41,584 nt of DNA from NCBI GenBank assembly GCA_025463265.1, contig JAOBWH010000201.1:1-41584 (forward strand), given 5' to 3'. The stretch is from Ilumatobacteraceae bacterium. GTDB taxonomy: Bacteria > Actinomycetota > Acidimicrobiia > Acidimicrobiales > Iamiaceae. The notes under the pieces are model-generated. The model ran no database searches, had not been told where the DNA came from, and saw only the letters and a list, made by a program, of their open reading frames with translations. Both the position numbers and the translations under genes were made by a program. Below are positions 1,653-41,363 of this stretch, piece after piece (position 1 is the first letter of the stretch; each line of letters opens with the position of its first letter).

Positions 1653-3079
1653 CAGAAGGCGCTCATCACGTGCTTGATGCGGGTGTAGTCCTCGAGGCCG
1701 TACTTGCTCAGGTCCTTGCCGGTGCCCGAGTGCTTGAAGCCGCCGTGGGGCATCTCGGCGACCAGCGGGATGTGGGTGTTGATCCAGACGCAGCCGAAGT
1801 CGAGGCGGCGCGACACCCGCAGGGCCCGGGCGTGGTCCGTGGTGAACACGCTGGAGGCCAGGCCGTACTCCACGCCGTTGGCGAAGCGGAGCGCCTCGTC
1901 CTCGTCGGCGAAGGACTGGAGCGTGATGACCGGGCCGAAGATCTCGCTCTGGATGAGCTCGTCGTCCTGGCGGAGGCCGCTGACCACCGTGGGGGCGAAG
2001 AAGTAGCCGGCATCGCCCACCTGCGACCCGCCGGCCAGGACCGAGGCGTGCGCCGGGGCGCGCGACACGATGCCCGCCACCCGCTCGAGCTGGTTGGCGT
2101 TGTTGAGCGGGCCGAAGTCGGCGTCGGTGTCCGACGGAGGGCCGGTGGTGTGGGCGTGGGCCTGCGCGGTGAGCGCCGCGGCCAGCTCGTCGTGGATGGC
2201 GGGCGCGGCCAGCACCCGGGTGGCGGCGGTGCAGTCCTGGCCGGCGTTGAAGTACCCGGCGATGGCGATGGCCTCGGCGGCCGCCTCGATGTCGGCATCC
2301 TCGAACACGAGGACCGGGGCCTTGCCGCCGAGCTCGAGGTGCACGTTCTTGAGGTCGTCGGCGGCGCTGCGCATGACCTCCATGCCGGCGCGGACCGAGC
2401 CGGTGATCGACACCATCTGCGGGATCTTGTGCGAGACGAGCGCGGCACCGGTGTCGCGGTCGCCGCAGATCACGTTGAGCACGCCGGCCGGGAACACCTC
2501 GGCGGCCAGCTCCGCCAGCTTGAGCGTCGACACGGGGGTGGTGTCCGACGGCTTGAGCACCACCGTGTTGCCGGCGGCCAGGGCCGGTGCGATCTTCCAG
2601 ACCGCCATCATCATCGGGTAGTTCCAGGGCGTGACCTGGGCGCACACCCCGATGGGCTCCCGGCGGATCCACGACGTGTGGCCCTCCATGTACTCCCCGG
2701 CCGAGGTGCCCTCGAGGACCCGAGCTGCGCCGGCGAAGAAGCGGATCTGGTCGACCATGGGCGGCACCTCCTCCCCGGACGTGAGCCCGATGGGCTTGCC
2801 GGTGTTCTCCGACTCCATCGCGACCAGCTCGTCGGCGTGGGCCTCGACCAGGTCGGCGAACTTCAGCAGCGCCCGCTGGCGGTCGCCGGGCGTGGTGTCC
2901 CGCCAGGTCTCGAACGCCGTGGCCGCCGCCTGGCACGCCGCGTCGACGTCGGCGGCGCCGGAGCGGGGCGAGGTGGCGAACACCTCGCCGGTGGACGGGT
3001 CGACCAGGTCGATGGTGGCGCCGTCCGCGGCGTCTGCGGGGGCACCTCCCACCAGGTTCTGCAGGGCACGAGCGGTCAC
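1652..3079 (-). CDS. patD: aldehyde dehydrogenase, gamma-aminobutyraldehyde dehydrogenase (PatD/YdcW) type
   Basis: A 475-residue NAD-dependent aldehyde dehydrogenase. Visible motifs are the cofactor-binding VTPWNYPMMM (about 149-158), the general base Glu in ELGGKAP (Glu249), the nucleophile Cys in NAGQDCTAATR (Cys283) and the C-terminal EMPHGGFKHSGTGKD. The NAGQDCTAA block and the ending KYGLEDYTRIKHVM match the E. coli YdcW/PatD subgroup as I recall it, which oxidises 4-aminobutanal from putrescine to GABA. The GTG at 3079 is chosen because GGAGG lies about 5 nt before it, and the upstream in-frame ATG would add a non-conserved tail. It is the first gene of a tightly coupled pair with the saccharopine dehydrogenase-like reductase. 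Function by family is strong; the in vivo substrate is inferred. Confidence 0.87.
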   Translation of the reverse strand: MTARALQNLVGGAPADAADGATIDLVDPSTGEVFATSPRSGAADVDAACQAAATAFETWRDTTPGDRQRALLKFADLVEAHADELVAMESENTGKPIGLTSGEEVPPMVDQIRFFAGAARVLEGTSAGEYMEGHTSWIRREPIGVCAQVTPWNYPMMMAVWKIAPALAAGNTVVLKPSDTTPVSTLKLAELAAEVFPAGVLNVICGDRDTGAALVSHKIPQMVSITGSVRAGMEVMRSAADDLKNVHLELGGKAPVLVFEDADIEAAAEAIAIAGYFNAGQDCTAATRVLAAPAIHDELAAALTAQAHAHTTGPPSDTDADFGPLNNANQLERVAGIVSRAPAHASVLAGGSQVGDAGYFFAPTVVSGLRQDDELIQSEIFGPVITLQSFADEDEALRFANGVEYGLASSVFTTDHARALRVSRRLDFGCVWINTHIPLVAEMPHGGFKHSGTGKDLSKYGLEDYTRIKHVMSAF

Positions 3080-3108
3080 GGCAACCTCCAAGTGGGCGGG
3101 GTGAGCGG

Positions 3109-3197: not shown

Positions 3198-4484
3198 ATG
3201 AGCGAATCCATTCCGAACGCTGCGACGCGGGTGGTGGTCATCGGGCAGGGCTACGTCGGCCTCCCGCTGGCGGTCCGAGCGGTCGAGCAGGGCTACGACG
3301 TCGTCGGGTACGACCTCGACCAGGGGCGGATCGCACAGCTCGCATCGGGCAGCTCGTTCATCGAGGACATCGCCGACGAGCGGCTCCAGGCCGTCTTGGC
3401 CACGGGCCGCTTCACGCCCAGCGCCGACGCCGCCGACCTCGAGGGGTTCGACATCGCGGTCATCTCCGTGCCCACGCCGCTGCGCGAGGGCTCACCGGAC
3501 CTCACCTACATCGAGGCGTCGGCCGAGCAGCTCGGCGCGGTGCTGAAGCCCGGTGCGTGCGTCATCCTCGAGTCGACCACCTATCCCGGCACCACCGAGG
3601 AGCTCATGCTCCCGATCCTGGAGAAGGCCAGCGGGCTCAAGGCCGGCACCGACTTCCAGGCCGGCTACTCCCCCGAGCGCATCGACCCGGGGAACAAGAC
3701 CTACACCCTCGAGACCACGCCGAAGGTGGTGTCGGGCATCGACGAGGCCAGCCTCGCCCGGGTCCAGGGGTTCTACGACGACATCGTCACCACGACGGTC
3801 CCCGTGCGCTCGCCGAAGGAGGCGGAGCTCACCAAGCTGCTGGAGAACACCTTCCGGCACGTCAACATCGCGCTCGTCAACGAGCTGGCGATGTTCGCCC
3901 GGGACCTGGGCATCGACATCTGGGAGGCCATCGACGCGGCGGAGAGCAAGCCGTTCGGGTTCATGCCGTTCCGCCCGGGCCCGGGCGTGGGCGGGCACTG
4001 CCTGCCCATCGATCCGTCGTACCTGTCGTGGCGGGTGAAGCAGTCGCTCGGCCAGACGTTCCGGTTCGTCGAGCTGGCCAACGACGTCAACGAGCACATG
4101 CCCGACTACGTGATCCGCCGGCTGGTCGCTGCGCTCAACGACCGCGAGCTGTCGGTCAAGGGCCGGCGGGTGCTCGTGCTCGGCCTGGCGTACAAGAAGA
4201 ACACCGGTGATGACCGGGAGTCGCCCAGCACCCGCATCATCGAGCTGCTGTCGGACCTCCAGGCCGATCTGGCCGTGTGCGACCCGCACGTCGACCCGGC
4301 GCGCAGTCACGCCATCGGCACCGCCGACTACGTGGAGCTCACCGAGGCCGAGGTGGCCAAAGCCGACGCCGTCGTCGTGCTCGTCGACCACGACGCGTTC
4401 GACCTGGACCTGGTCGCCCGCACCGCGTCCTACGTGCTCGACACCCGCCGGTGCATGACGGGACCGGTCGTCGAGCACCTGTAG
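3198..4484 (+). CDS. UDP-sugar 6-dehydrogenase (nucleotide-sugar dehydrogenase)
   Basis: A 428-residue member of the UDP-glucose/GDP-mannose/UDP-HexNAc dehydrogenase family, which oxidises the sugar C6 to the uronic acid in two NAD-dependent steps. The N-terminal Rossmann loop is GQGYVGLP (16-23). The central domain contains GYSPERIDPGNK and ELTKLLENTFRHVNIA. The catalytic cysteine is Cys268 in GPGVGGHCLPIDP. The C-terminal UDP-binding domain begins near KGRRVLVLGLAYKKNTGDDRE. The form of these motifs is closer to UDP-N-acetyl-hexosamine dehydrogenases (WbpA/WecC group) than to classical UDP-glucose dehydrogenases, but the substrate is not certain. It heads the envelope block and probably supplies an acidic sugar for a surface polysaccharide. 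AGGGAGAAC precedes the ATG. Confidence 0.88.
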   Translation: MSESIPNAATRVVVIGQGYVGLPLAVRAVEQGYDVVGYDLDQGRIAQLASGSSFIEDIADERLQAVLATGRFTPSADAADLEGFDIAVISVPTPLREGSPDLTYIEASAEQLGAVLKPGACVILESTTYPGTTEELMLPILEKASGLKAGTDFQAGYSPERIDPGNKTYTLETTPKVVSGIDEASLARVQGFYDDIVTTTVPVRSPKEAELTKLLENTFRHVNIALVNELAMFARDLGIDIWEAIDAAESKPFGFMPFRPGPGVGGHCLPIDPSYLSWRVKQSLGQTFRFVELANDVNEHMPDYVIRRLVAALNDRELSVKGRRVLVLGLAYKKNTGDDRESPSTRIIELLSDLQADLAVCDPHVDPARSHAIGTADYVELTEAEVAKADAVVVLVDHDAFDLDLVARTASYVLDTRRCMTGPVVEHL

Positions 4485-23420: not shown

Positions 23421-24323
23421 CTACCTGGATCCGGTGACGGTCAGGCAGGCGTCGGTCATCGCCCGACCGAAGCTGGGCTTGGCGCACCAGGTGTGGCCCT
23501 CGTCGTGGAGGTGCACCTCGGCGGTGGGGATCGCGAGGAGGAGCCGGAGCTGCTCCTGGGGCGGGACGGCGCGGTCCTTGGTGGTGACCACCAGCGTGGT
23601 GGGGACGTCGACCGGGTTCAGCCAGGTGCGGCTGTCGAAGTTGCAGGTGGCGGCCAGCGCCTCGGTCACCAGGCGGGTGTCGTGGCGGCGGAACTCCGCA
23701 CCGGCCCAGCGGCGCATGCTGTCGGGCCGGGCCTTGACCGCCTGGGGGATCTGCTTCTGCCACAGGGCGATCGGCACTCGTGAGGCGAGCTGGCCGACGC
23801 GGGTGGACCCGGCCACGGCCGACACGGCCGTGACGAACGCCAGCCGCTCCCGCACGCCGGGGACGAAGCGGTTCGAGGTGGCGCACAGCACGAGGCCGGC
23901 GACCTTCTCGGGGTGCCGGTGCCACAGCAGCTGGGCGATGGGACCACCCATCGAGTAGCCGACGGCGATGGCCGCATCGATGCCCAGCACGTCGAGCAGC
24001 GCGGCGGCGTCGTCGGCGCAGTCGGCCAGGCGGAACCGGCTCCACGCCCGGATGCCGCGGCCGTGGCCGCGGTGGTCGATGGCGATCACCCGGAAGTGCT
24101 CCGACAGCGGCTCGAACGCCTGGAACCAGTTGAGCCCACCGCTCGCGATCAATCCGTGGAGCAGCAGGACGGTGGGCGCACCCGGGGGGCCCGCGACCTC
24201 GCGGATGAACGTGGTGCCCCGGCCCGGCAGCTCCACCCGGCGCCCGAGCGGGATGGGCGGTCCACCCGTCACCTCCGCGACGTCCGGATCGATCTGCGGT
24301 GCGTCGCTTGCCGATACGGTCAC
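23421..24323 (-). CDS. alpha/beta hydrolase
   Basis: A 300-residue alpha/beta-hydrolase. The oxyanion segment is LLLHGLIASGG, the DHRGHGRG turn follows, and the nucleophile is Ser124 in GYSMGG. The acid is probably Asp in VVTTKDRAVP and the catalytic His lies in HDEGHTW. The cap region is small. It could be an esterase or lactonase, or a C-C bond hydrolase in ring cleavage; nothing in the sequence decides. The GTG at 24323 is favoured because TATTGT ends 7 nt before it; longer forms would read through the P450 promoter. It is divergent from the CYP142-like gene and shares its palindromic control region, so the two are probably co-regulated. Confidence 0.85.
   Translation of the reverse strand: MTVSASDAPQIDPDVAEVTGGPPIPLGRRVELPGRGTTFIREVAGPPGAPTVLLLHGLIASGGLNWFQAFEPLSEHFRVIAIDHRGHGRGIRAWSRFRLADCADDAAALLDVLGIDAAIAVGYSMGGPIAQLLWHRHPEKVAGLVLCATSNRFVPGVRERLAFVTAVSAVAGSTRVGQLASRVPIALWQKQIPQAVKARPDSMRRWAGAEFRRHDTRLVTEALAATCNFDSRTWLNPVDVPTTLVVTTKDRAVPPQEQLRLLLAIPTAEVHLHDEGHTWCAKPSFGRAMTDACLTVTGSR
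24315..24320 (+). promoter_or_regulatory. possible -10 hexamer (TACGGT) of the P450 gene
   Basis: TACGGT lies 52 nt before the GTG at 24367. A transcript from here would contain the palindrome and the GGAGG ribosome-binding site. Confidence 0.3.
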
Positions 24324-24330
24324 AGCCGCC

Positions 24331-24336
24331 ACAATA
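24331..24336 (-). promoter_or_regulatory. -10 hexamer TATTGT, leaderless start of the alpha/beta hydrolase gene
   Basis: TATTGT on the minus strand ends 7 nt before the GTG at 24323 and overlaps the edge of the palindrome at 24333-24353. Confidence 0.5.
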
Positions 24337-24353
24337 TGACGACCCGTCAGATC
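24333..24353. promoter_or_regulatory. palindromic operator TGACGACCCGTCA between the hydrolase and P450 genes
   Basis: Core TGACG-N3-CGTCA (24337-24349) with flanks AATA and GATC. It closely resembles the CoA-transferase operator (core TGACGGACCGTCA, flanks AATC and GATT). Its position between the two start codons would let one repressor control both genes. Confidence 0.55.
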
Positions 24354-24366
24354 CCGGAGGCATCGC

Positions 24367-25566
24367 GTGCCCGACCACCCCACCCGCAGCGACATCGACT
24401 TCATCAGCGGTGCGTTCTGGGGCCGCAACCCCCACGACGATTTCGCATGGATGCGGGCCAACGCGCCGGTCTACTGGGACGGGCACGCATGGGGCATCAC
24501 GCGCTACGCCGACCTCAAGTCGATCTCGAAGGACCCGGTCACCTTCTCCAACGCCCAGGGCATCCGGGCCGACGCCGATCCGCTCCAGATGATGATCGAC
24601 ATGGACGACCCGGAGCACTTCCGCCGCCGGAAGCTGGTGAACAAGGGCTACACGCCCCGCCGGGTCCGCGAGCGCGAGGGCGAGGTCCGTGCCGCGTGCC
24701 GCGACATCATCGACGCCGTGTGCGAGCGCGGCGAGTGCGACTTCGTCACCGACATCGCCGCCTGGCTGCCCCTGATCATGATCGGCAACGACCTGGGCGT
24801 CCTCCCCGAGGACCGCGAGCAGCTCCTCGAGTGGAGCGACGCCATGCTCTCCGCTCTGACCGGTGACCCCGACGCCCTCGAGCCGGCCACGCTCGCCTTC
24901 ATCGGGTACACCGAGTACGCCGAACGGGTCATCGCCGACCGCACCGCGGACCCCAAGGACGATCTGATGAGCGTCCTGTGCCACGCCGAGGTCGACGGCG
25001 ACCGCCTCGACCACCAGGCCATCATCGACGAGTCCCTGCTCATCTTGATCGGGGGCGACGAGACCACCCGCCACGTCATCTCCGGCGGTGCGTACCAGCT
25101 GCTGGCCAACCGGGATCAGTGGGACCGCCTCCAGGGCGACCGCGAGCTGCTCCCCAGCGCGCTCGAGGAGATGCTGCGCTGGGTGAGCCCCATCAAGAAC
25201 ATGAACCGCACCGCCACCGCCGACGTGGTCGTGAACGGGCAGCAGATCCGGGAGGGCGACAACGTGTTGCTCCTGTACCCGTCAGCCAACCGCGACGAGG
25301 ACGTGTTCGAGGATCCGTTCCGCTTCGACGTGGGCCGCACCCCGAACGATCACGTGGCCTTCGGCTTCGGCACCCACTTCTGCCTCGGCAACAGCCTCGC
25401 CCGCCTCGAGCTGACGGTGATGTTCGAGGAGCTCCTCGACCGGCTGCCCGACCTGGAGCTGGTGGGCGGCGCCGAGCCCGGCTACCGCGCCGCCAACTTC
25501 GTGAGCGGGTACGAGCACATGCCCGTGCGCTTCACCCCGACCGAGCCGGTGGGCCGCACCGCCTGA
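24367..25566 (+). CDS. cyp142: cytochrome P450, CYP142-like (steroid side-chain hydroxylase family)
   Basis: A 399-residue soluble P450. Visible motifs are the I-helix LLILIGGDETTRH, the K-helix EEMLRW (ExxR) and the haem loop FGFGTHFCLGNSLARLE with ligand Cys339. Segments such as MMIDMDDPEHFRRRKLVNKG, IIDAVCERGECDFV, GGDETTRHVISGG and ANFVSGYEHMPVRF resemble M. tuberculosis CYP142 closely as I recall it. CYP142 oxidises the terminal methyl of cholest-4-en-3-one. Electrons would come from a ferredoxin and reductase outside the window. GGAGG lies 7 nt before the GTG start. The gene is divergent from an alpha/beta hydrolase, with a TetR-type palindrome between them. A role in sterol or isoprenoid side-chain attack is inferred from family; the CYP125/CYP142 substrate range is broad. 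Confidence 0.88.
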   Translation: MPDHPTRSDIDFISGAFWGRNPHDDFAWMRANAPVYWDGHAWGITRYADLKSISKDPVTFSNAQGIRADADPLQMMIDMDDPEHFRRRKLVNKGYTPRRVREREGEVRAACRDIIDAVCERGECDFVTDIAAWLPLIMIGNDLGVLPEDREQLLEWSDAMLSALTGDPDALEPATLAFIGYTEYAERVIADRTADPKDDLMSVLCHAEVDGDRLDHQAIIDESLLILIGGDETTRHVISGGAYQLLANRDQWDRLQGDRELLPSALEEMLRWVSPIKNMNRTATADVVVNGQQIREGDNVLLLYPSANRDEDVFEDPFRFDVGRTPNDHVAFGFGTHFCLGNSLARLELTVMFEELLDRLPDLELVGGAEPGYRAANFVSGYEHMPVRFTPTEPVGRTA

Positions 25567-25608
25567 CCGCACCGCCCGACCGCACGGCCGAACGGTGCAG
25601 CCGTCGGA

Positions 25609-27768
25609 TCAGATGGTGATGACCGCTCCGATGCGGCCCTCATCATCGACGAAGGCCATCGAGCTGCCGCCGAGCACGGCCCACCCGCCATCGGTGCGGA
25701 GCACCCGAGACGCCTGCTCCGGCATCTGGACGGTGACCCGGCTGACCTCCCGCAGGGTGCTGCCGTCGACCTCGATCTCCACGACCTGGCTCCCGGTGTT
25801 CGGGTTGCTGGGCTGGCATGCGTAATCGACGTTGGCGCCGCCTGATGGCGGGATCACGCACTCGGTGGTCATCGCCTGCCACGAGGTGACCGGGACGGCG
25901 AAGCGGCGCTCGCCGAGGCTCACGAACGCGTGGTGGTCCGAGACCACCGGGGAGTCATCGCCGAGGGTCAGCTCATCGACCACCTTCGGTGCCGCCGGGT
26001 CCGACACGTCGAACAGCTTGGCCACCTGCTGCCCGCTCGCACCGGGCCCGAAGCCGACGACCCGGTCCCGGCCGATCGGGTGGAGGTAGCCGCTGAAGCC
26101 CGGGAGCTTCACCTCGCCGGCCACCTTCGGGTCCGTCGGGTCTGCCAGGTCGAGCACGTAGAACGGGTCCGTCTGGAGGAAGGTGACGGCGTAGGCGGTG
26201 GCGCCGTCGAAGCGGATGCCGTACAGCGTCTCGCCCGGCAGCCCGAACCACGGCGTCGAGCCGACCACGTCGAGGTTCCCCTCGGTGTCGAGCACCACGA
26301 CCTTGTTCAGCGGGTCGTCCGGGCCCGGGCCGGGGATGGTGGTGCCGGTGGGCTGGGCGGTGGTGGTCGTCGTGCTCGTGCTCGTGCTCGTGCTCGTCGA
26401 GGTCGACGTGCTGGTCGAGGTGCTGGTGGTGGATGTGCTCGTGGTGGTGGCGGGCGCCGGCTCGGTCGTGGTGGTGGCCTCGCCTGGGACGGTCGTGTCG
26501 GGCACGGCGTCGGCGGGGACGATCGCCGGAACCGGCTCGACGGTGCCGGTCGGCTCCTCGGCGAAGTCAGCACCGGGCGAGCCGTCGGTGCCCACCGGCG
26601 CCGAGGTGCCCGAGTCGCCGTCGCTCACCTGCTCCTCGATCACGACGTCGTCGATCGGGACGGGCCGACCGCCGAATCCCTCCACGCCGGGGCCGTCAGC
26701 CGTGATGGCGACCCGGAGGTGGCCGTCGTGCTCGGACATCGAGAAGTCGTTCAGCAGCGATCCGGGCACCGAACCCGAGCCGGTGTGCTCCAGATCGCCG
26801 AGGTCGAAGCGGTGGATCGCCGTGGTCGACCCCTGGTCGCCCCACTGCGGGGTGGCGAGGTAGGCGGCGTCGTCCGTGACGGCGACGAGCTGGCCGGACC
26901 CCACCACCTCGGTGGCGTGGGTCGGCTGGAGCTCGCCGGTCACCGGCAGGCGCACGATGAGCGAGGCGGTCGGATCCGAGGTCTGGGTCGGGTGCAGCAC
27001 CTCGTCGCAGGGCACCGGGCCGCCGCCGAACGGGACTTGGTCGCCGCGGGCACCGGTGAAGCCGTCGGCGGCCACCAGGTACAGGTCGGCCCCGACCCGG
27101 CGGGCGTCGACCAGCATCCCCGACGTGGTCCACGTGCCGACGTTGTCGAGCGAACTCGCACCGACGTCGACCCGGGCCGCCTGCACCGCGGCACCGTCCT
27201 CGGACTGGCCCACGACCCAGGCCCGGCCCGCCTCACGGTCGTAGGTGACCTCGGCGCCGTAGGGCACGGGGCGGGTGGCCAACACGTCGGCGTCGCCGAG
27301 GTCGACGATCGCCAGCTTCTGCCCGGCGACCACCAGGACCCGGTCGCCGCCGAGGCGGTCCACCAGATCGAGCTCGTCGACGCCGTCGACCACCACGTTG
27401 GTGGCATCGAGCGCCTTCTCGTCGGCGGCGGACGACGACGCCTGGTCCGCGCTCTGCTCGCTGGCCGCACCTGTGGTGGCCGGGGCGCTCATCGCTGCCT
27501 CGCTGGCCGCACCCCCGGCGGTGACCCGTGCATCACCGTCGAACGCCAGACCGACGTCGCCGACCGGGCCGAACTGCTGCCTGTACGCATCCTCGCCCCA
27601 CGCCGAGAGGTCCCGGCACGACCCGAAGGCCCTCAGGCCCGAGGCCTCGGCCTGCTCGGGCGTGGCCACCACCGCCGCTGCTGCGACGACCGCCGTCATG
27701 CCCAGGGCGGCGAGGAGGACGGCGATCCCCTTGCGGGGCCGGTTGCCGGGGGTGAGGTTGTTGTCCAT
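25609..27768 (-). CDS. secreted or membrane-anchored beta-propeller domain protein
   Basis: A 719-residue protein of the prokaryotic beta-propeller family (PF09826-like). The N-terminus has a basic stretch and a hydrophobic segment (RKGIAVLLAALGMTAVVAAA, about 12-32), a signal peptide or membrane anchor. Propeller blades are suggested by repeated strands such as VLVVAGQKLAIVDLGDADV, TAIHRFDLGDLEHTGS, PFYVLDLADPTDPKVAGEV and AKLFDVSDPAAPKVVDEL. The domain is interrupted at about residues 400-475 by a Pro/Thr/Ser linker with long Thr-Ser alternation, encoded by CGTGCT repeats on the plus strand. Function is unknown; homologues are extracellular. It follows the acyl-CoA synthetase on the same strand with a 43-bp gap, so co-transcription is possible. 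No clear promoter is seen. Confidence 0.82.
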   Translation of the reverse strand: MDNNLTPGNRPRKGIAVLLAALGMTAVVAAAAVVATPEQAEASGLRAFGSCRDLSAWGEDAYRQQFGPVGDVGLAFDGDARVTAGGAASEAAMSAPATTGAASEQSADQASSSAADEKALDATNVVVDGVDELDLVDRLGGDRVLVVAGQKLAIVDLGDADVLATRPVPYGAEVTYDREAGRAWVVGQSEDGAAVQAARVDVGASSLDNVGTWTTSGMLVDARRVGADLYLVAADGFTGARGDQVPFGGGPVPCDEVLHPTQTSDPTASLIVRLPVTGELQPTHATEVVGSGQLVAVTDDAAYLATPQWGDQGSTTAIHRFDLGDLEHTGSGSVPGSLLNDFSMSEHDGHLRVAITADGPGVEGFGGRPVPIDDVVIEEQVSDGDSGTSAPVGTDGSPGADFAEEPTGTVEPVPAIVPADAVPDTTVPGEATTTTEPAPATTTSTSTTSTSTSTSTSTSTSTSTSTTTTTAQPTGTTIPGPGPDDPLNKVVVLDTEGNLDVVGSTPWFGLPGETLYGIRFDGATAYAVTFLQTDPFYVLDLADPTDPKVAGEVKLPGFSGYLHPIGRDRVVGFGPGASGQQVAKLFDVSDPAAPKVVDELTLGDDSPVVSDHHAFVSLGERRFAVPVTSWQAMTTECVIPPSGGANVDYACQPSNPNTGSQVVEIEVDGSTLREVSRVTVQMPEQASRVLRTDGGWAVLGGSSMAFVDDEGRIGAVITI
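26371..26394. repeat. (CGTGCT)4 microsatellite in the beta-propeller gene
   Basis: Four perfect 6-bp units lie inside a wider low-complexity stretch (about 26340-26460). They encode Ser-Thr pairs, so unit gain or loss changes linker length by two residues without shifting the frame. Confidence 0.75.
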
Positions 27769-27811
27769 GCCGGTTGCGACGACCCGGCCGGCGCCCCGGT
27801 TCCCGGCTCGT

Positions 27812-29455
27812 TCAGGTGCGGGTTCCCACGGCCACCTCCGCGGTGGCCTTGGCCCAGCGGTAATCGGCCTTGCCAGCCGGTGAGCGCTCGACCTGCGGGA
27901 CGATCACCACGTGCTTGGGCAGCTTGTACCCGGCGAGGGAGGCCCGCAGGTGGTCCCGCACGTCGTCGAGGGTCGGCGGCGCATCGGGGTCGGCGGGAGC
28001 GACGACCGCGACCACCGCGCTCCCCCAGCGCTCGTCGGGGACGCCGACCACCAGCACGTCGAGGACGGCCTTGTGGTCGACGAGCGCCGACTCGACCTCC
28101 TCGGGGAAGACCTTCTCGCCGCCGGTGTTGATGCACTGCGAGCCGCGGCCCAGCAGCTGGATGGTGCCGTCCTCCTCCACCGTGGCCAGGTCGCCGGTGA
28201 AGCAGTAGCGCTGGCCGTCGACCTCGATGAACGTGGACGCCGTCTTCTCCGGGTCGTTCAGGTACCCGAGCGGCAGGCGACCAGCGTTGGCCACCTTCCC
28301 GATCACCCCGGATCCCGGCTCGACCGGGCGCAGCTCCTCGTCGAAGACCCCGGTGGTGGGGCCGGGGGCGAACCGGGCGAGACCCGACGGGTTCTCCCCC
28401 GCCGTGAGGCGCTGCGAGCCCTGGACGCCGCTCTCCGACGAGCCGAACCCGTCGATGATGGCCCGGCCCTCGAACAGCTCGCCCAAGCGCGCCTTCAGCG
28501 ACGACGACATCGGCGCCCCGCCGTTCGAGATGGCGAACAGTCCGGCGGCCTGCCAGCGGCCGGGGTTGGCCTCCCACGCCGACACCAGCGGGCGGGCGAC
28601 GGCATCGCCCACGACCGTGAGCGAGTTGACCTGGTGCTCATCGACGGCATCCCACACGGCCACGGGGTCGAGCGCACCCGGCATCAAGACGGTCTTGCCG
28701 CCGGCCAGCAGCCACGAGAACGTGGTCCACTGCGCCGCCGCGTGCATCAGCGGCGCCAGCGGCAGGTAGCTGAAGGCGTCGACCATGCGGTCCGGCAGCT
28801 GCTCCGGCGAGTCGATCGGTCCGCCGAGGCGCATGGGATCGCCGCCGCCGATGCAGGCGAAGAACGCATCCTCCTGACGCCACACCACGCCCTTCGGCCG
28901 GCCGGTGGTCCCGCCGGTGTACATCAGGTAGGTGTCGTCCCCGGAGCGGCCGTGGGTCTCCACCGGCTCGGGCGACGCCGCCGCCAGGGCGACCTCGTAG
29001 TCCAGGCCCTCGTCGAGCGGGACGACCTCGCCCGACACCGACGACGGGTCTGGGTCCGACACGATCAGCACGGATCGAATGGCGGCGATGCCACCCGGCA
29101 CCGAGGCCACCGCGCCGGTCAGGGTCTCGTGCACCACCAGCGCCTGGGCGCCCGAGTCCTCGATCAGGTACCCGAGCTCCGCGCCCGTGTACCGGTGGTT
29201 CATGTTCACCGGGATGGCCCGCAGGGAGAACGCCGCCAGCATCGACTCCAGGTACGCCGCGTCGTTCCGCAGGAACAGCCCGACCCGGTCGCCGGGCCCC
29301 ACGCCGGCCTCCCGCAGGTGGTTGGCCAACCGGTTCGCCCGCTCCGCGAGCTCCCCGTAGGTCCGGGTCTGCGGACCGCACACCAGCGCCACCCGCTCGG
29401 CGCACCGCGGCCAGATCGACTCCCACAGATCAGCGAAGTTGTACGTGCTCGACAC
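27812..29455 (-). CDS. acyl-CoA synthetase, FadD19-like
   Basis: A 547-residue AMP-forming acyl-CoA ligase. The phosphate loop is YTGGTTGRPKGVVWR (about 175-189), followed by the IIDGFGSSESG adenine-binding region. The hinge region is GRGSQCINTGGEKVFPEEVE and the catalytic Lys lies in SPAGKADYRWAK near the C-terminus. Its layout (INTGGEKVFPEEVE, GDAVARPLV, SPAGKADYRW) is closest to the actinobacterial FadD17/FadD19 group, which activates C24-C26 steroid side-chain acids. The GTG at 29455 gives the family start (SSTYNFADLWES) and has AGGGG just before it. In-frame starts at 29470 and 29506 would read into or through a perfect operator palindrome, which argues against them. The gene is probably repressed by the regulator that binds TGAC-N5-GTCA. 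Confidence 0.87.
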   Translation of the reverse strand: MSSTYNFADLWESIWPRCAERVALVCGPQTRTYGELAERANRLANHLREAGVGPGDRVGLFLRNDAAYLESMLAAFSLRAIPVNMNHRYTGAELGYLIEDSGAQALVVHETLTGAVASVPGGIAAIRSVLIVSDPDPSSVSGEVVPLDEGLDYEVALAAASPEPVETHGRSGDDTYLMYTGGTTGRPKGVVWRQEDAFFACIGGGDPMRLGGPIDSPEQLPDRMVDAFSYLPLAPLMHAAAQWTTFSWLLAGGKTVLMPGALDPVAVWDAVDEHQVNSLTVVGDAVARPLVSAWEANPGRWQAAGLFAISNGGAPMSSSLKARLGELFEGRAIIDGFGSSESGVQGSQRLTAGENPSGLARFAPGPTTGVFDEELRPVEPGSGVIGKVANAGRLPLGYLNDPEKTASTFIEVDGQRYCFTGDLATVEEDGTIQLLGRGSQCINTGGEKVFPEEVESALVDHKAVLDVLVVGVPDERWGSAVVAVVAPADPDAPPTLDDVRDHLRASLAGYKLPKHVVIVPQVERSPAGKADYRWAKATAEVAVGTRT

Positions 29456-29471
29456 GGTCCCCTGGTTCACA

Positions 29472-29488
29472 TCTGACAGTGTGTCAGA
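29472..29488. promoter_or_regulatory. palindromic operator TCTGACAGTGTGTCAGA before the acyl-CoA synthetase gene
   Basis: A perfect inverted repeat with 7-bp arms (TCTGACA / TGTCAGA) around GTG, 17 bp upstream of the preferred GTG start. TCTGAC-N5-GTCAGA is shared with the CoA-transferase operator at 31428-31448. Confidence 0.6.
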
Positions 29489-29533
29489 AACTGCTGGGCC
29501 GCTCATCGGGGATGGGCGGGGGCCCGAGGCGGC

Positions 29534-30034
29534 TCAGAGGCCGTCGGGGACGTCGCCCAGCAGCAGCTCGACACCAGCGAGGGCCGGGTCGAACCCGGGC
29601 TCCCACGGCAGCCAGCCGGTGCGGTCCGGCCACACGAGCTGGACCATCCGGTAGGGCTCGTCGCCGTACCAGGCGGTGGCCGACCCGAACAGGTCGCCCA
29701 TGGCTTCGAGGTCGACCGGGATGAGCCCGGCCCGCTGCTCGCCGTCGTACAGGCCCCGGAACAGCTCGCCCACGGGGATCTGGGTGCCGCCGCGCAACAG
29801 GTCGGCCATCAGGCCGGCGAGCCCCTTGGCGGCCACCGGCTTGAGGCCGACGATCACGATCTCGGGGAACCCGAACGTCTGCTCGAACCCGATCGTGTAC
29901 CCGTACCCGGGAAGCGGTGGGTCGGTGGCGGTGTTGGCGCCCACCGGCTCGAGCAGCCACCCGGTGGTCTCGATCATCCAGGCGAGCTTGTCGCGCAGCG
30001 CCATCGACCGGTCCGGGAACACGTCGTCGCCCAT
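29534..30034 (-). CDS. DUF4262 domain-containing protein
   Basis: A 166-residue cytoplasmic protein with the DUF4262 signature. An N-terminal helix (KLAWMIETTGWLLEPV) leads to GYGYTIGFEQTFGFPEIVIVGLKPVAAKGLAGLMAD, then VGELFRGLYDGEQRAGLIPVD and a Trp-rich end (MVQLVWPDRTGWLPWEPGFD). Function is unknown. The family is scattered in actinobacteria and often appears near toxin or phage genes, but nothing of that kind is adjacent here. The ATG at 30034 is supported by a TACCGT -10 ending 7 nt upstream. It is transcribed toward the acyl-CoA synthetase, but the operator palindrome and start of that gene lie between them, so independent control is likely. Confidence 0.8.
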   Translation of the reverse strand: MGDDVFPDRSMALRDKLAWMIETTGWLLEPVGANTATDPPLPGYGYTIGFEQTFGFPEIVIVGLKPVAAKGLAGLMADLLRGGTQIPVGELFRGLYDGEQRAGLIPVDLEAMGDLFGSATAWYGDEPYRMVQLVWPDRTGWLPWEPGFDPALAGVELLLGDVPDGL

Positions 30035-30041
30035 GCGACCG

Positions 30042-30047
30042 ACGGTA
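30042..30047 (-). promoter_or_regulatory. -10 hexamer TACCGT, leaderless start of the DUF4262 gene
   Basis: TACCGT on the minus strand ends 7 nt before the ATG at 30034. No ribosome-binding site is present. Confidence 0.55.
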
Positions 30048-30125
30048 TCTCGACCGCGCTGGTCGCCACCGTTGCTGCCTACCCGGGCGCCATGTCGCGC
30101 ATCGAGGCCACCGCGATCATCGAGG

Positions 30126-31304
30126 TCAGGATGGAGGGACGCTGAGCGCCTCTGCGTTGGTCCGCATGATCTGGTGGATCTCTTCGTCGGTGAAGCCGGC
30201 GAGGTCGTCGACGAAGGACTTCGGGTCGGCGAGGCCCTCGGCGTGGGGCCAGTCGGAGCCGAACAGCACGTGGCCGGCGCCGATGGCGTCGGCGAGGTGG
30301 CGGATGTCGTCCTCGTAGTAGGGGGCGACCCACACGTTGGTGCGCAGGCGCTCCACCGGGTCCACGGCGAAGGCACCGGGGGTCATCGAGTGGGCCTTGG
30401 CCAGCTTCTTGACGAGCGGGTGGACCCACTCCGAACCGCTCTCGATGGTGGCGACCCGCAGCGAGGGGAACCGGTCGAACACGCCGTGGCAGATGAGCGC
30501 CGCCATGGTGTCGGAGATGGCCCGGTCCGAGGTGAGGATCCCGTAGAGAGGCGTGCGCCGGAAGGCCTCGAACTCGGCGGACTCGCCCCAGTCCACGACG
30601 TAGCGGCCGTAGCCGGCCTCGCCGGAGTGGTACGCCACGGTCACCCCGGCATCGGCGAGGACCCGCCACATCGGGTCGTAGAGCGGATCGCCCGGCGAGC
30701 GGCCGCCCGAGGGGTGCATGATCGGACCGGCGCGCAGCACCACGATGCGGCAACCGTGCTCGACGGCCCAGCGGGCCTCATCGAGCGCCTGGTCGGGATC
30801 GAGCAGGGTCAGGTACGGCGCTCCGAAGATCCGGTCCTGGAAGTGGAGGCCCCAGTCGTCCTCGACCCAGCGGTTGAAGGCCCGGAAGGCGGCGTGGGCG
30901 GCGTCGGGGTCACCGACGAGCGCCTCCTCCATGCCGACGCCGAGCGTGGGGAACATGAAGCAGCCGCTGATCCCCTGCTCGTCCATCACCGCGAGGCGGG
31001 CGTCGCGGTCGCGGTAGGCGGGGCTGATGGGCTCCAGGGCGCCGAACGCGGCGCGGATGTCGTCGGCCGGGACCTTTCCCCGGAAGTGGTCGTCGAGGCA
31101 GCCGGGGCGCGCAACCGGGTCGAACCGGGGGTTCGGGATGAACCGGTTGATGCGCCCGGCGACCACCAGGCGCGTCTTGCCATCGACCTCCGCCCACTGC
31201 ATGGCTCGCTTCTGCATCCGCGGGTCGAGGTGACGGGTGAAGGCGTCGGGTGCCTCGTAGTAGTGGTTGTCGGCGTCGAAGACGTCGAAGTCGACCGTGC
31301 CCAT
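30126..31304 (-). CDS. amidohydrolase family protein (ACMSD/LigW-like superfamily)
   Basis: A 392-residue metal-dependent hydrolase of the amidohydrolase_2 (ACMSD-like) group. The N-terminal metal motif is DADNHYYE (10-17), a variant of the usual DxDxHxxE. Later metal-binding or catalytic parts are AYHSGEAG (about 230), RVATIESGSEWV and the terminal Asp in LFGSDWPHAEG. Actinobacteria carry many paralogues, usually as predicted decarboxylases or C-C hydrolases in aromatic or steroid breakdown; the reaction here is not assignable. AGGGGG lies 5 nt before the ATG at 31304. A palindrome (AGAACGTGTTCT) 39 bp upstream suggests TetR-type control shared with the fused acyl-CoA dehydrogenase. It is divergent from the CoA-transferase gene. 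Confidence 0.85.
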   Translation of the reverse strand: MGTVDFDVFDADNHYYEAPDAFTRHLDPRMQKRAMQWAEVDGKTRLVVAGRINRFIPNPRFDPVARPGCLDDHFRGKVPADDIRAAFGALEPISPAYRDRDARLAVMDEQGISGCFMFPTLGVGMEEALVGDPDAAHAAFRAFNRWVEDDWGLHFQDRIFGAPYLTLLDPDQALDEARWAVEHGCRIVVLRAGPIMHPSGGRSPGDPLYDPMWRVLADAGVTVAYHSGEAGYGRYVVDWGESAEFEAFRRTPLYGILTSDRAISDTMAALICHGVFDRFPSLRVATIESGSEWVHPLVKKLAKAHSMTPGAFAVDPVERLRTNVWVAPYYEDDIRHLADAIGAGHVLFGSDWPHAEGLADPKSFVDDLAGFTDEEIHQIMRTNAEALSVPPS

Positions 31305-31342
31305 GGCGGCCCCCTGGCTGCAGACGGATGTGCGACGAAACA

Positions 31343-31354
31343 AGAACGTGTTCT
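31343..31354. promoter_or_regulatory. KstR-like operator AGAACGTGTTCT upstream of the amidohydrolase
   Basis: AGAAC-N2-GTTCT lies in the divergent amidohydrolase/CoA-transferase region, nearer the amidohydrolase. The core is identical in form to the site at 39041-39054. The outer T and A of the mycobacterial KstR consensus are not both kept, so it is a weaker match. Confidence 0.45.
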
Positions 31355-31426
31355 CGTTTTCAACCTACCCCTCCCCCGCTCCGGCTGCTCACCGGGCCGA
31401 AGGTGAGCCCGAGGGGGATGGGGCGC

Positions 31427-31432
31427 TAATCT
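31427..31432 (+). promoter_or_regulatory. -10 hexamer (TAATCT) of the CoA-transferase gene
   Basis: TAATCT begins one base before, and overlaps, the palindrome at 31428-31448. The start codon is 36 nt downstream, leaving a leader with GAGG before the ATG. Confidence 0.5.
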
Positions 31433-31448
31433 GACGGACCGTCAGATT
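31428..31448. promoter_or_regulatory. perfect palindromic operator overlapping the CoA-transferase -10
   Basis: Perfect 10-bp arms AATCTGACGG / CCGTCAGATT around a single A. It covers the -10 hexamer, so a bound repressor would exclude polymerase. The core TGACGGACCGTCA matches the site in the P450 control region and the TCTGAC-N5-GTCAGA form of the acyl-CoA synthetase site. Confidence 0.7.
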
Positions 31449-31467
31449 CGAACCGTCCGAGGTCACC

Positions 31468-32703
31468 ATGTCTTCCAGCACCGGCCCGCTCGCAGGCGTC
31501 CGCATCATCGAGAGCTCGATGCTCGGCCCCGCCGCCATCACGACCCAGCTCGCCGACCTCGGCGCCGAGGTCATCAAGGTCGAAGCACCTTCGGGCGACT
31601 ACATCCGCCAGATGACGTGGCCCATCGTCGAGGGCGTCTCGCTGATGCACCTCCACCTCAACCGCGGCAAGAAGTCGATCACCCTCGACCTCCGCACCCC
31701 CGAGGCCGTGCAGACCTACCTCGACCTGGTGCGCGACGCGGATGTCGTCATCGAGGCGATGCGGCCCGGCGGCCTCGAGCGCCGCGGCCTCGGCTACGAC
31801 AAGCTCCGCGAGGTCAACCCGGCCATCGTGTTCTGCACCATCTCGGGCTACGGCATGACCGGCCCCTACGCCGAGCTCCCCAGCCACGGCGTCGCCTACG
31901 ACGTGTGGGCCGGGCTGGTGAAGCCCGAGATCACCGAGGAGGGCTTCGCCGCCATCCCCGAGCACCCGTCGATGGGCATCCACGCCGGGCCCCTCTTCGG
32001 TGCGCTCGGCGTGCTGGCCGGCGTCATCAAGGCCCGGGCGACCGGCGAGGGCTGCCGCCTCGAGATCGCCCAGTCCGACGCCGCCGCCGCCATGGACTGG
32101 TACCGCTCCGAGAGCTGGAAGGCCTACGAGCGACCCGAGTCCGAGGTCACCGGGAACGCCTCGGACAACTACGTGCGCCGGGCGCCGGGCACCGCCGGCA
32201 TGCGCGACGGCGTCCGCTACCAGTTCTACGAAGCCTCCGACGGCAACTTCGTCCTCCTGCAGGCCTCCGAGCGGGAGTTCTGGGAGAACTTCTGCAAGGG
32301 CGTCGACCGCTACGAGCTGTTCGAGCAGAACCCGGGCGCCAAGTTCGCCGACCACGCCGTGGGCAACGTCGAGCTGCGCACGCAGCTCAAGGAGATCTTC
32401 CTCACCCGTCCGGCGCAGGCGTGGGTGGACCTCGGCCTCGAGATCAACGTGCCGATCATCAACGTCAACACGCCGCAGACCCTGAAGGACGACCCGCAGT
32501 TCCAGGCCCGCTTCGAGTGGATCCCGGCCGAGCGCCTCGGTGCCGAGCAGCAGCCGTCGCCCATCAAGTACCTCGATCTGGACATCCCGCTGCCCGAGAA
32601 GGCCCCCACGGCCGGCCAGCACACCGACGAGGTCCTCCGGGACCTCCTCTCGCTGAGCGACGACGACATCGCGAAGCTCCGCGAGAGCGGCGCCCTCGGC
32701 TGA
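31468..32703 (+). CDS. CaiB/BaiF family (class III) CoA-transferase
   Basis: A 411-residue class III CoA-transferase, which moves CoA between acyl groups through an aspartyl-anhydride intermediate. Visible blocks are GVRIIESSMLGPAAITTQLADLGAEVIKVE at the N-terminus, the hallmark LNRGKKSITLDLRTPEA, and RPGGLERRGLGYDKLREVNP. The likely active-site neighbourhood is HGVAYDVWAGL with GCRLEIAQSDAAAAMDW. Relatives include alpha-methylacyl-CoA racemases and bile-acid CoA-transferases, and the true substrate is unknown. GAGG precedes the ATG at 31468. The -10 is buried in a perfect palindrome of the same class as those before the P450 and the acyl-CoA synthetase, tying it to that regulon. AlkB follows but has its own promoter. 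Confidence 0.88.
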   Translation: MSSSTGPLAGVRIIESSMLGPAAITTQLADLGAEVIKVEAPSGDYIRQMTWPIVEGVSLMHLHLNRGKKSITLDLRTPEAVQTYLDLVRDADVVIEAMRPGGLERRGLGYDKLREVNPAIVFCTISGYGMTGPYAELPSHGVAYDVWAGLVKPEITEEGFAAIPEHPSMGIHAGPLFGALGVLAGVIKARATGEGCRLEIAQSDAAAAMDWYRSESWKAYERPESEVTGNASDNYVRRAPGTAGMRDGVRYQFYEASDGNFVLLQASEREFWENFCKGVDRYELFEQNPGAKFADHAVGNVELRTQLKEIFLTRPAQAWVDLGLEINVPIINVNTPQTLKDDPQFQARFEWIPAERLGAEQQPSPIKYLDLDIPLPEKAPTAGQHTDEVLRDLLSLSDDDIAKLRESGALG

Positions 32704-39040: not shown

Positions 39041-39054
39041 TAGAACGCGTTCTA
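39041..39054. promoter_or_regulatory. KstR-type operator TAGAACGCGTTCTA before the fused acyl-CoA dehydrogenase gene
   Basis: A perfect 14-bp palindrome that satisfies the mycobacterial KstR consensus TnnAACnnGTTnnA. It overlaps the first two bases of the TAGCCT -10, an ideal position for repression. Confidence 0.65.
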
Positions 39055-39065: not shown

Positions 39066-41363
39066 ATGCACCTCAAGATCACCGAGGAACAGGACGCGCT
39101 GCGGGATGCTGTGGCGAGCTTCTTGGACAAGGCGTCGTCGTTCGAAGCGGTCCGGGAGGCCGAGCCGCTCGGGTGGGATGCCAAGGTGTGGTCGGGCCTG
39201 ACCGACATGGGCGTGCCCACCCTCGGCGTGTCCGAGGAGCTCGGCGGCTCGGGTGCGTCGCTGCGCGACATGGCGGTGGTGGCCGAGGCGTGCGGTGCCC
39301 GCCTGGCCCCCGCGCCCGTGATCGAGACCATGGTGGCCGCCCGGCTGCTGTCCCGGTTCGCCGACGCCCCCGGAGCCCACCTCACCGAGCTGATCGAGGG
39401 TGGTGCCCCGGTCGCGGTCGCCCTGCGGCCTGCGATCGACGGCACCGCACGGGTCGTCCCCGGCGCCGCGGTGGCAGCATCGGTGATCGCGCTCGAGGGC
39501 GACGAGCTCGTCGTCGTCGCCCCACGGGACCTGGCGTCCCCCAGCAACCTCGGCTCGGCGCCCATCGCCGATGTGGCGCTCGGCGGCGACCGCACCGTGC
39601 TCGCCTCGGGCGACGAGGCCCGTGCCGCCCACGCCCTGGCGGTCGACGAGTGGCGCGCCCTCACGGCGCGCTGGTTCATCGGCCTGGCCCGCGAGGCGCA
39701 GGCCATCGGCGTCCAGTACGCCACGGACCGCAAGCAGTTCGGCGTCGCCGTCGCGTCGTTCCAGGCGATCCAGCACCGCTTCGCCGATCTGGCCACGGAC
39801 CTCGACGGCGCCGACCTGCTCGCCAACAAGGCGGTCTGGGCGCTCGACGTCGGCGACCCCGTAGCGACCAGCTTCCCGGCCATGGCCTTCTCCTTCGCCG
39901 GCGACACGGCGCAGCGGCAGTCGTCGTGGAGCCTCCACGTGCACGGCGGCTACGGGTTCATGGAGGAGTACGACATCCAGCTGTACTTCCGCCGGGCCAA
40001 GGCTGCCCACCTGCTGCTCGGCGACCCGCGCCGAGAGCTGATCGACCTCGCCGGCCGGCTGTGGGACGACCGCACCGCCGGCCCGATCCCCAGCTCTGCG
40101 TACCGTCCGACCAACACCGGCAAGGCCGATGCCGCCGCCAACGGCACCTACGCCGAGCCCGAGCGGATCGATGCCGACACGTCCGACGGTGGCTTCGACT
40201 TCCGCCTCGACCCGGCGGTGCAGACGTTCCGCGACGAGATCCGCGCCTTCCTCACCGAGCACGTGACCGAGCAGGTCATCGAGGACGCCCACCGCACCGG
40301 CACCATCCACGACTGGGGGCTGCACGAGAAGATGGCCGACGCCGGCTGGATCTCCGCCGGGTGGCCGTCCGAGTTCGGCGGCCAGGGCCGGTCACCGCTC
40401 GAGATGAACTCGCTGTCGGAGGAGATGTACTTCTCCGGCGCTCCGGTCGACGGCCTCGGCGTGGCCAGCCTCGTCGCCCACACGCTGCTGATCGACGGAA
40501 CCGATTGGCAGAAGCAGACGATCATCCCCGAGATCCTGAGCGGCAAGGCGATGTGCTGCCTGGGCTACTCCGAGCCCGACGCCGGCTCCGACGTGGCCTC
40601 GGTGATGACCAAGGCGGTGCGCGACGGCGACGAGTGGATCATCAACGGCCAGAAGATGTTCACCACGCTCGCCCACGAGGCGCACTACGTGTTCCTGCTC
40701 ACCCGCACGAACACCGAGGTGGCCAAGCACAAGGGCCTCACCATGTTCGTGATCCCGATGGACGACCCGGCCATCACGTTCACCCCCGTCCACACCATGG
40801 GCGGCGAGCGCACCAACATCACCTACTACGACGACCTCAAGGTCGACGACAAGTACCGGGTCGGCGAGGTCGACGGCGGCTGGAAGGTCATGATGACCGC
40901 CCTCGTCTACGAGCGGAACAGCGCCTGGTACGGCGAGCTGGTCCGCCTGCTCGACCACGGCCTCGGGTGGGCCCGCAGCGAGGGCTCGCCGGCCGGCGGC
41001 CCCATGATCGACGACCCGCTGGTGCGCGACCGCCTGGCCCGCATCGCCATCGGGAACGAGGTGTCCAACCTGTTGGGCTGGCGGGCGGCGTGGATGGCGG
41101 CAGAGGGCACGCTGCCGGGCGTCGAGGGCACCATGGCCAAGCTGTTCACCACCGAGCACTACCAGTACGCCGGCAACGAGCTGATCGATGCGCTGGGGGC
41201 CGGTGGCCTGCCCCGCCACGGCGACACCGCAACCGGGGGCGCCGACGGGTGGATCGAGGCGATCTACCGCCACTGCCAGGTCACCACCATCTACGGCGGC
41301 ACCAGCGAGGTCCTCCGCGGCATCATCGCCGAGCGCGGCCTCCAGCTCCCCCGCAACCGGTAG
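39066..41363 (+). CDS. fused two-domain acyl-CoA dehydrogenase (FadE34-like architecture)
   Basis: A 765-residue protein containing two acyl-CoA dehydrogenase modules. Domain 1 (about 1-330) has VPTLGVSEELGGSGASLRDM, ATDRKQFGVAVASFQAIQHR and LHVHGGYGFMEEYDIQLYFRR. After a linker (about 345-385), domain 2 has WISAGWPSEFGGQGRSPLE, CCLGYSEPDAGSDVAS and DEWIINGQKMFTT. It ends with TTIYGGTSEVLRGIIAERGL. Single-chain tandem enzymes of this kind are known from mycobacterial FadE34 (ChsE3), which in other forms is an alpha2-beta2 heterotetramer acting on steroid side-chain CoA thioesters. One module usually carries FAD and the catalytic Glu; which one here is not settled. The KstR-type operator supports a steroid or similar substrate. 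Leaderless start at 39066. Confidence 0.85.
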   Translation: MHLKITEEQDALRDAVASFLDKASSFEAVREAEPLGWDAKVWSGLTDMGVPTLGVSEELGGSGASLRDMAVVAEACGARLAPAPVIETMVAARLLSRFADAPGAHLTELIEGGAPVAVALRPAIDGTARVVPGAAVAASVIALEGDELVVVAPRDLASPSNLGSAPIADVALGGDRTVLASGDEARAAHALAVDEWRALTARWFIGLAREAQAIGVQYATDRKQFGVAVASFQAIQHRFADLATDLDGADLLANKAVWALDVGDPVATSFPAMAFSFAGDTAQRQSSWSLHVHGGYGFMEEYDIQLYFRRAKAAHLLLGDPRRELIDLAGRLWDDRTAGPIPSSAYRPTNTGKADAAANGTYAEPERIDADTSDGGFDFRLDPAVQTFRDEIRAFLTEHVTEQVIEDAHRTGTIHDWGLHEKMADAGWISAGWPSEFGGQGRSPLEMNSLSEEMYFSGAPVDGLGVASLVAHTLLIDGTDWQKQTIIPEILSGKAMCCLGYSEPDAGSDVASVMTKAVRDGDEWIINGQKMFTTLAHEAHYVFLLTRTNTEVAKHKGLTMFVIPMDDPAITFTPVHTMGGERTNITYYDDLKVDDKYRVGEVDGGWKVMMTALVYERNSAWYGELVRLLDHGLGWARSEGSPAGGPMIDDPLVRDRLARIAIGNEVSNLLGWRAAWMAAEGTLPGVEGTMAKLFTTEHYQYAGNELIDALGAGGLPRHGDTATGGADGWIEAIYRHCQVTTIYGGTSEVLRGIIAERGLQLPRNR

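Follow-up and report, generated by a model that had tools for sequence, protein, structure and literature searches.

Three copies of the palindrome TGAC-N5-GTCA lie at gene starts in a stretch of 41,584 nucleotides from an Ilumatobacteraceae bacterium, called the window below, and the question raised by this locus is whether they serve a single repressor. Coordination of the neighboring catabolic promoters by one TetR-like repressor had been proposed in the original prediction. Following the analysis reported here, we consider it highly probable that one TetR-family repressor uses all three palindromes as its operators; it would be encoded outside the window at G000:C10:29,685-30,365. What can be read directly from the DNA is the motif, where it is placed, how far it is conserved and how it is tied to this TetR gene. 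The predicted operators and their probable targets are as follows.

24333-24353 (core 24337-24349), no strand: predicted operator 1, between an alpha/beta hydrolase gene (minus strand) and a P450 gene (plus strand)
29470-29490 (core 29474-29486), no strand: predicted operator 2, at the start of an acyl-CoA synthetase gene (minus strand)
31428-31448 (core 31432-31444), no strand: predicted operator 3, 30 bp upstream of a CoA-transferase gene (plus strand)
23421-24323, minus strand: alpha/beta hydrolase (PF00561), probable target
24367-25566, plus strand: cytochrome P450 (PF00067), facing the alpha/beta hydrolase gene, probable target
27812-29470, minus strand: AMP-binding acyl-CoA synthetase (PF00501), start codon uncertain, probable target
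31468-32703, plus strand: CoA-transferase family III (PF02515), probable target

The palindrome in the window and in the genome

The three palindromes were found with sequences and flanks exactly as first described, and their cores are all the TGAC-N5-GTCA matches of the window. The expected number is 0.55, and at least three matches were reached in 2 of 100 dinucleotide shuffles. Judged from the window by itself, the excess is modest, and it is the genome count that makes it strong. A scan of the whole genome (4.05 Mb in 204 contigs), as had been suggested, yielded 51 matches to TGAC-N5-GTCA against 3 to the reversed pattern used as a control, and 34 matches to CTGAC-N5-GTCAG against 0. The site at 24337, which carries an A where the flanking C is expected, is counted among the 51 and absent from the 34. 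The core described originally is present, but it is only the centre of a longer palindrome of about 21 bp, ATCTGACGRNCCGTCAGAT; the consensus of 29 sites, each aligned in either orientation, is nnATCTGACGGnCCGTCAGATnn. In a 23-bp weight matrix from whose training the window sites were left out, the three sites scored 25.5, 26.8, and 33.4, the next window position scored 9.1, and 200 mononucleotide shuffles of the window gave at most 20.2. In the profile search across the genome, 150 of 2480 candidates were scored, so that weak sites are under-counted. A chance origin of the three palindromes in GC-rich DNA would fit the 2 shuffles with as many cores, but it is contradicted by the genome-wide counts and by the site placement, the promoters of relatives and the co-occurrence with one TetR gene described below, and we regard its probability as negligible.

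Placement of the sites and nature of the target genes

Genes were called by a simple codon-usage script in 40 stretches fetched around 47 of the 51 sites and, for three more sites, in the window, one of the 51 being left out; sites more than 40 nt inside a gene were classified as deep. Three of 33 CTGACN5GTCAG sites were deep despite a coding fraction of 88% (p = 4e-25), and 27 of the 33 were located at -40 to +160 nt from a start codon, with a median of 30. The expectation that the motif is commoner upstream of genes than inside them was thereby borne out. Among the fetched sites of four relatives, 2 of 23, 1 of 14, 4 of 19, and 2 of 24 were deep, with site-to-start medians of 32 to 50; genomes G146 (18 fetched sites) and G158 (8) were left out of the positional statistics. 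A strict match inside a tRNA-Pro gene (L018) was taken as chance.

In the window, the broad gene types assigned beside the sites (hydrolase, P450, AMP-binding, CoA-transferase) hold by Pfam. Measured from its centre, operator 1 is 20 bp from one of the called start codons and 24 bp from the other. In the case of operator 2, the position depends on the start codon of the synthetase gene: with ATG 29506 the operator falls within about codons 6-13, and a start at GTG 29470, or at an in-frame GTG further on, would leave it immediately upstream, the position seen at most other targets. The -10 element said to be overlapped by the palindrome at 31432 found no backing in a sigma-70 consensus scan of 24200-31600, which gave no promoter anywhere in this interval; the hexamer GCTAAT lies immediately 5' of the operator 3 palindrome.

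By Pfam, 22 of the 27 genes nearest to sites in the window's genome encode catabolic-type enzymes. Eleven belong to CoA-ester families, namely, acyl-CoA dehydrogenase (four, one a weak partial match), enoyl-CoA hydratase (three), AMP-binding (two), CoA-transferase (one), and ChsH2 type (one). Another 11 are other oxidoreductases or hydrolases: three luciferase-like proteins, three amidohydrolases, and one each of isochorismatase, zinc alcohol dehydrogenase type, aldehyde dehydrogenase, FAD oxidase, and DapB type. One gene is SnoaL-like, and four do not match the enzyme pattern (ABC transporter, periplasmic binding protein, nucleotidyl transferase, and one protein without a family). The genes on the far side of some sites are unrelated, such as those for isocitrate dehydrogenase, transketolase, and a response regulator. 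When 72 target genes of four relatives were compared with 72 others from the same loci, the counts were 11 vs 2 for AMP-binding, 8 vs 3 for the acyl-CoA dehydrogenase C-domain, 6 vs 4 for short-chain dehydrogenase, 4 vs 2 for CoA-transferase, 3 vs 2 for enoyl-CoA hydratase, and 3 vs 3 for the thiolase N-domain. Amidohydro_2 was counted 7 times and the ChsH2 OB domain 6 times among the targets, and each at most once in the control, this bound following from their absence from the control's listed top 25.

Conservation of the site upstream of orthologous genes, which had been put forward as a check, was borne out in large part. CoA-transferase relatives in G111, G108, and G169 (66-70% identity) have a site, as does the hydrolase relative in G108 (65%), and in G111 a site lies 20 bp upstream of the synthetase relative L098:1323-2987 (53%). 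In contrast, the closest synthetase relative compared (G108, 59%) and a close P450 relative in G111 (63%), which adjoins the synthetase gene, were not called targets. The description of the promoters as scattered among unrelated genes did not hold up: the hydrolase, synthetase, and CoA-transferase relatives are neighbors in G108 (L083), with sites in the locus, and the P450, synthetase, and CoA-transferase relatives are neighbors in G111 (L098). As the relatives stand together in both genomes, the genes of the window resemble a conserved cluster more than a scattered set.

A candidate TetR regulator and its co-occurrence with the motif

An all-against-all comparison of the TetR genes near sites in relatives gave one recurring group, composed of L007:448-1128, L104:6761-7429 (G111, 58%), L118:7817-8500 (G169, 55%), and the divergent L132:557-1198 (G146, 33%). 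The first of these is the candidate regulator named above, a TetR protein of 226 aa with a TetR_N helix-turn-helix encoded at G000:C10:30150-30266 (33.5 bits, cut-off 24 bits). An orthologue from Aquihabitans was modelled in place of the window genome's own protein and has an all-helical TetR fold with a mean pLDDT of 89.8; its predicted structure can be assigned with confidence to the TetR fold with an N-terminal HTH and a C-terminal ligand domain. In the window's genome the TetR gene is the last in a same-strand run of four genes, for an isochorismatase, an AMP-binding protein, a 184-aa protein whose Aquihabitans counterpart is DoxX, and the TetR protein, and a site lies 22 bp upstream of the first gene. 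In G111 the TetR gene directly follows an AMP-binding gene that has a site 21 bp upstream.

The search for a TetR gene carrying the site in its own promoter led to this gene, which has the site either there or at the operon head. Thirty loci from 30 genomes, the window's included, were compared, and in 9 of them a site with a matrix score of at least 14 stands in the roughly 180 bp preceding the TetR gene; the other 21 loci have no site just upstream, and a few of these TetR genes are in site-headed operons. The window's genome itself shows no site immediately upstream of the TetR gene, but only at the operon head. The genome has 38 TetR genes, of which 30 other loci were scanned; none of these contains a site by profile, and their best matrix score is 9.2 compared with at least 20 for the training sites, and the promoters of two further TetR loci (L005, L038) scored below 0.

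Several other TetR genes were considered and set aside. The one at C9 (L004) has a TGACC-N3-GGTCA palindrome at 4001-4013, about 107 bp upstream, which scores only 3.2 and is probably the operator of another regulator. L118:3158-3961 lies beside a site, but the opposite gene begins only 28 nt away from that site. L123:3012-4328 (G169) encodes 438 aa with two TetR-like halves and had no full-length homologue among the proteins compared; palindromes were observed at both ends of this tandem gene. A weaker tier of homologues (about 49-81 bits, e.g., G111:C8:87381-87986) occurs in many genomes and is possibly a paralogous subfamily with an operator of its own.

A profile of the four TetR proteins of the recurring group was run over 198 genomes of the class, with at most 14 candidates per genome being scored. 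The TetR protein was found in 52 of the 198 genomes (at least 186 bits), and the next matches reached at most 81 bits. The mean number of motif copies was 10.1 in the 52 genomes with the protein and 2.4 in the 146 genomes in which it was not found (p = 3e-22), the values for the reversed control being 1.38 and 1.13, respectively. All seven families holding both states agree with the association. As exceptions, 14 of the 146 genomes scored without the TetR protein have at least six motif copies, five of them with control counts of at least three, and 9 of the 52 genomes with the protein have at most five copies. In G002, the full CTGACGNNNCGTCAG core was present in 0 of the 8 matches listed. 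In a sample of 246 genomes from the phylum, 25 of which also belong to the class sample, 17 had the protein. Outside the class, at least 11 motif copies were counted in 11 of 13 genomes with the TetR protein and in 0 of 208 without it. As the genomes are related and 8 of these 13 come from a single genus, g138 (the counts in the remaining five are 23, 14, 11, 6, and 6 copies), the p-values overstate the independence of the observations.

A scan of named genomes, from which the best 80 of at least 520 confirmed matches were taken, located the protein in Aquihabitans (Acidimicrobiia, Iamiaceae), in other actinobacterial bins, and, with 50-54% identity, in Streptomyces, Streptacidiphilus, Pseudofrankia, Frankia, and Actinomadura. 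A related, weaker palindrome precedes the TetR gene in all 66 Streptomyces-type loci, and in 55 of them the fetched stretch contains one or more additional strong sites. As protein and site are both present in Streptomyces, function and ligand are testable there. In genome G219, 48 strict matches were counted against 1 in the control, a number that overstates the full sites, since of the 27 matches fetched 18 scored at least 15 and 9 less; 11 of the 48 fall, together with the TetR gene, within some 60 kb. One of 21 places scoring at least 15 in G219 is deep inside a gene. Among twenty site-side genes there are those for amidohydrolases, luciferase-like enzymes, AMP-binding enzymes, thiolase-like proteins, one acyl-CoA dehydrogenase, and a flavin reductase, together with unrelated far-side genes such as those for a primase-like protein and an SRP GTPase.

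Site placement, the linkage of TetR gene and site, and the co-occurrence of motif and protein thus support the proposal that one TetR-type repressor would serve these promoters. The regulon might instead be controlled by another regulator, either a different TetR protein or a member of another family, with the present TetR protein merely a co-inherited member of the pathway. Its gene lies inside a target operon in the window's genome and may be associated with the motif in part as a cargo gene; moreover, co-occurrence was computed for this one of the genome's 38 TetR genes, in a survey of TetR proteins only. Yet the sites immediately upstream of this gene in nearly a third of the 30 loci, the related, weaker palindrome before it in all 66 Streptomyces-type loci and the low scores at the other TetR loci make such an arrangement unlikely. 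For the preferred reading, control by the TetR protein of the recurring group, we envisage that a dimer would bind the site of about 21 bp, at a median of 30 bp upstream of start codons in the window's genome, and would block transcription start; that the effect is repression is suggested by TetR biology and the type of targets. The releasing ligand would be an intermediate of catabolism, for which the CoA thioester of a lipid, a steroid, or an isoprenoid is the likeliest candidate, and release would switch on some 25-30 scattered promoters together, including that of the operon carrying the regulator gene.

Relation to known TetR regulators

In the open literature, the scope of our search, and as far as the texts were accessible, motif and regulator are nowhere named. 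MftR, the mycofactocin regulator, is described in the accessible part of PMC8728441 as a TetR protein responsive to long-chain acyl-CoA that recognizes T-N2-GGCA-N5-TGCC-N2-A. Its type and the N5 between the half-sites are shared by the system described here, whereas the half-site is TGAC here and GGCA in MftR, and the MftR model TIGR03968 gave no match to L007:448-1128 at E 1e-5. EthR of M. tuberculosis is the closest solved structure by sequence profile (E about 1e-13) and the best fold match to the modelled Aquihabitans orthologue (TM by target length about 0.85, 22% identity). According to the available text of PMC4482099, the EthR motif is larger and complex, with multiple copies, unlike the single compact palindrome found here; the same paper tabulates 30 mycobacterial TetR motifs as logos, among which a match is possible. 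The published motif of Rv0158, as far as given in the accessible sections of PMC10501769, differs from the TGAC palindrome, and the main text of the Mce3R paper (PMC11667970) contains no TGAC or GTCA string. FdmR, the mycobacterial fatty-acid catabolism repressor, is presented in PMC10501769 as a mycobacterial mechanism steering fatty acids away from catabolism, and the repressor proposed here may have a similar role.

The closest parallel in kind is KstR of mycobacteria, a TetR repressor whose palindromic operator TnnAACnnGTTnnA overlaps a putative -10 element and which is autoregulated and acts at tens of lipid-metabolism promoters, as stated in the text of PMC1995591 accessible to us. KstR-type palindromes occur in the window at two positions.

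31343-31354, no strand: KstR-type palindrome AGAACGTGTTCT, upstream of the Amidohydro_2 gene 30126-31304 (minus strand), about 75 bp from operator 3
39042-39053, no strand: KstR-type palindrome AGAACGCGTTCT, upstream of the tandem acyl-CoA dehydrogenase gene 39066-41363 (plus strand)

These boxes raise the alternative that a KstR orthologue controls the window promoters and that the TGAC palindromes are secondary. It would draw on the 16 boxes of the type AGAACRYGTTCT in the genome (control 0), which include the two in the window, and on a separate KstR-like TetR protein encoded on contig C155. However, the box is a different palindrome without a strict match near operators 1 and 2, and the KstR-like protein reaches 155 bits where the family cut-off is 280 bits, so that we judge control by KstR very improbable. 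The candidate regulator was absent from the 17 matches in the genome to the KstR model NF033703, for which 280 bits is the equivalog cut-off. Co-control at operator 3 by the KstR-type box is possible. KstR-type boxes were also seen beside a TGAC operator in L030 (near 3071-3103) and L026 (near 950-978), and such adjacency suggests dual control.

For dozens of poorly understood actinobacterial catabolic genes, including those for luciferase-like monooxygenases, amidohydrolases, CoA ligases, and thiolase-like proteins, the results provide a candidate regulator, an operator, and a target list, and shared control would place these genes in one pathway or substrate class. Judged from sequence, the arrangement is that of a KstR-like regulon in kind, yet it is not KstR: a TetR-type protein, a palindromic operator, and many lipid-type promoters are common to both, whereas the operators, nnATCTGACGGnCCGTCAGATnn here and TnnAACnnGTTnnA for KstR, differ. 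We think it rather likely that the TetR regulator, which has no name in the literature searched, acts through this one palindrome on a catabolic regulon of between a few and some tens of promoters in two distant groups of actinobacteria, the Acidimicrobiia and the Streptomyces-type genomes. It would be a second master switch of KstR scale, directed at lipid-like or cyclic substrates and operating beside KstR-type control wherever the two coexist.
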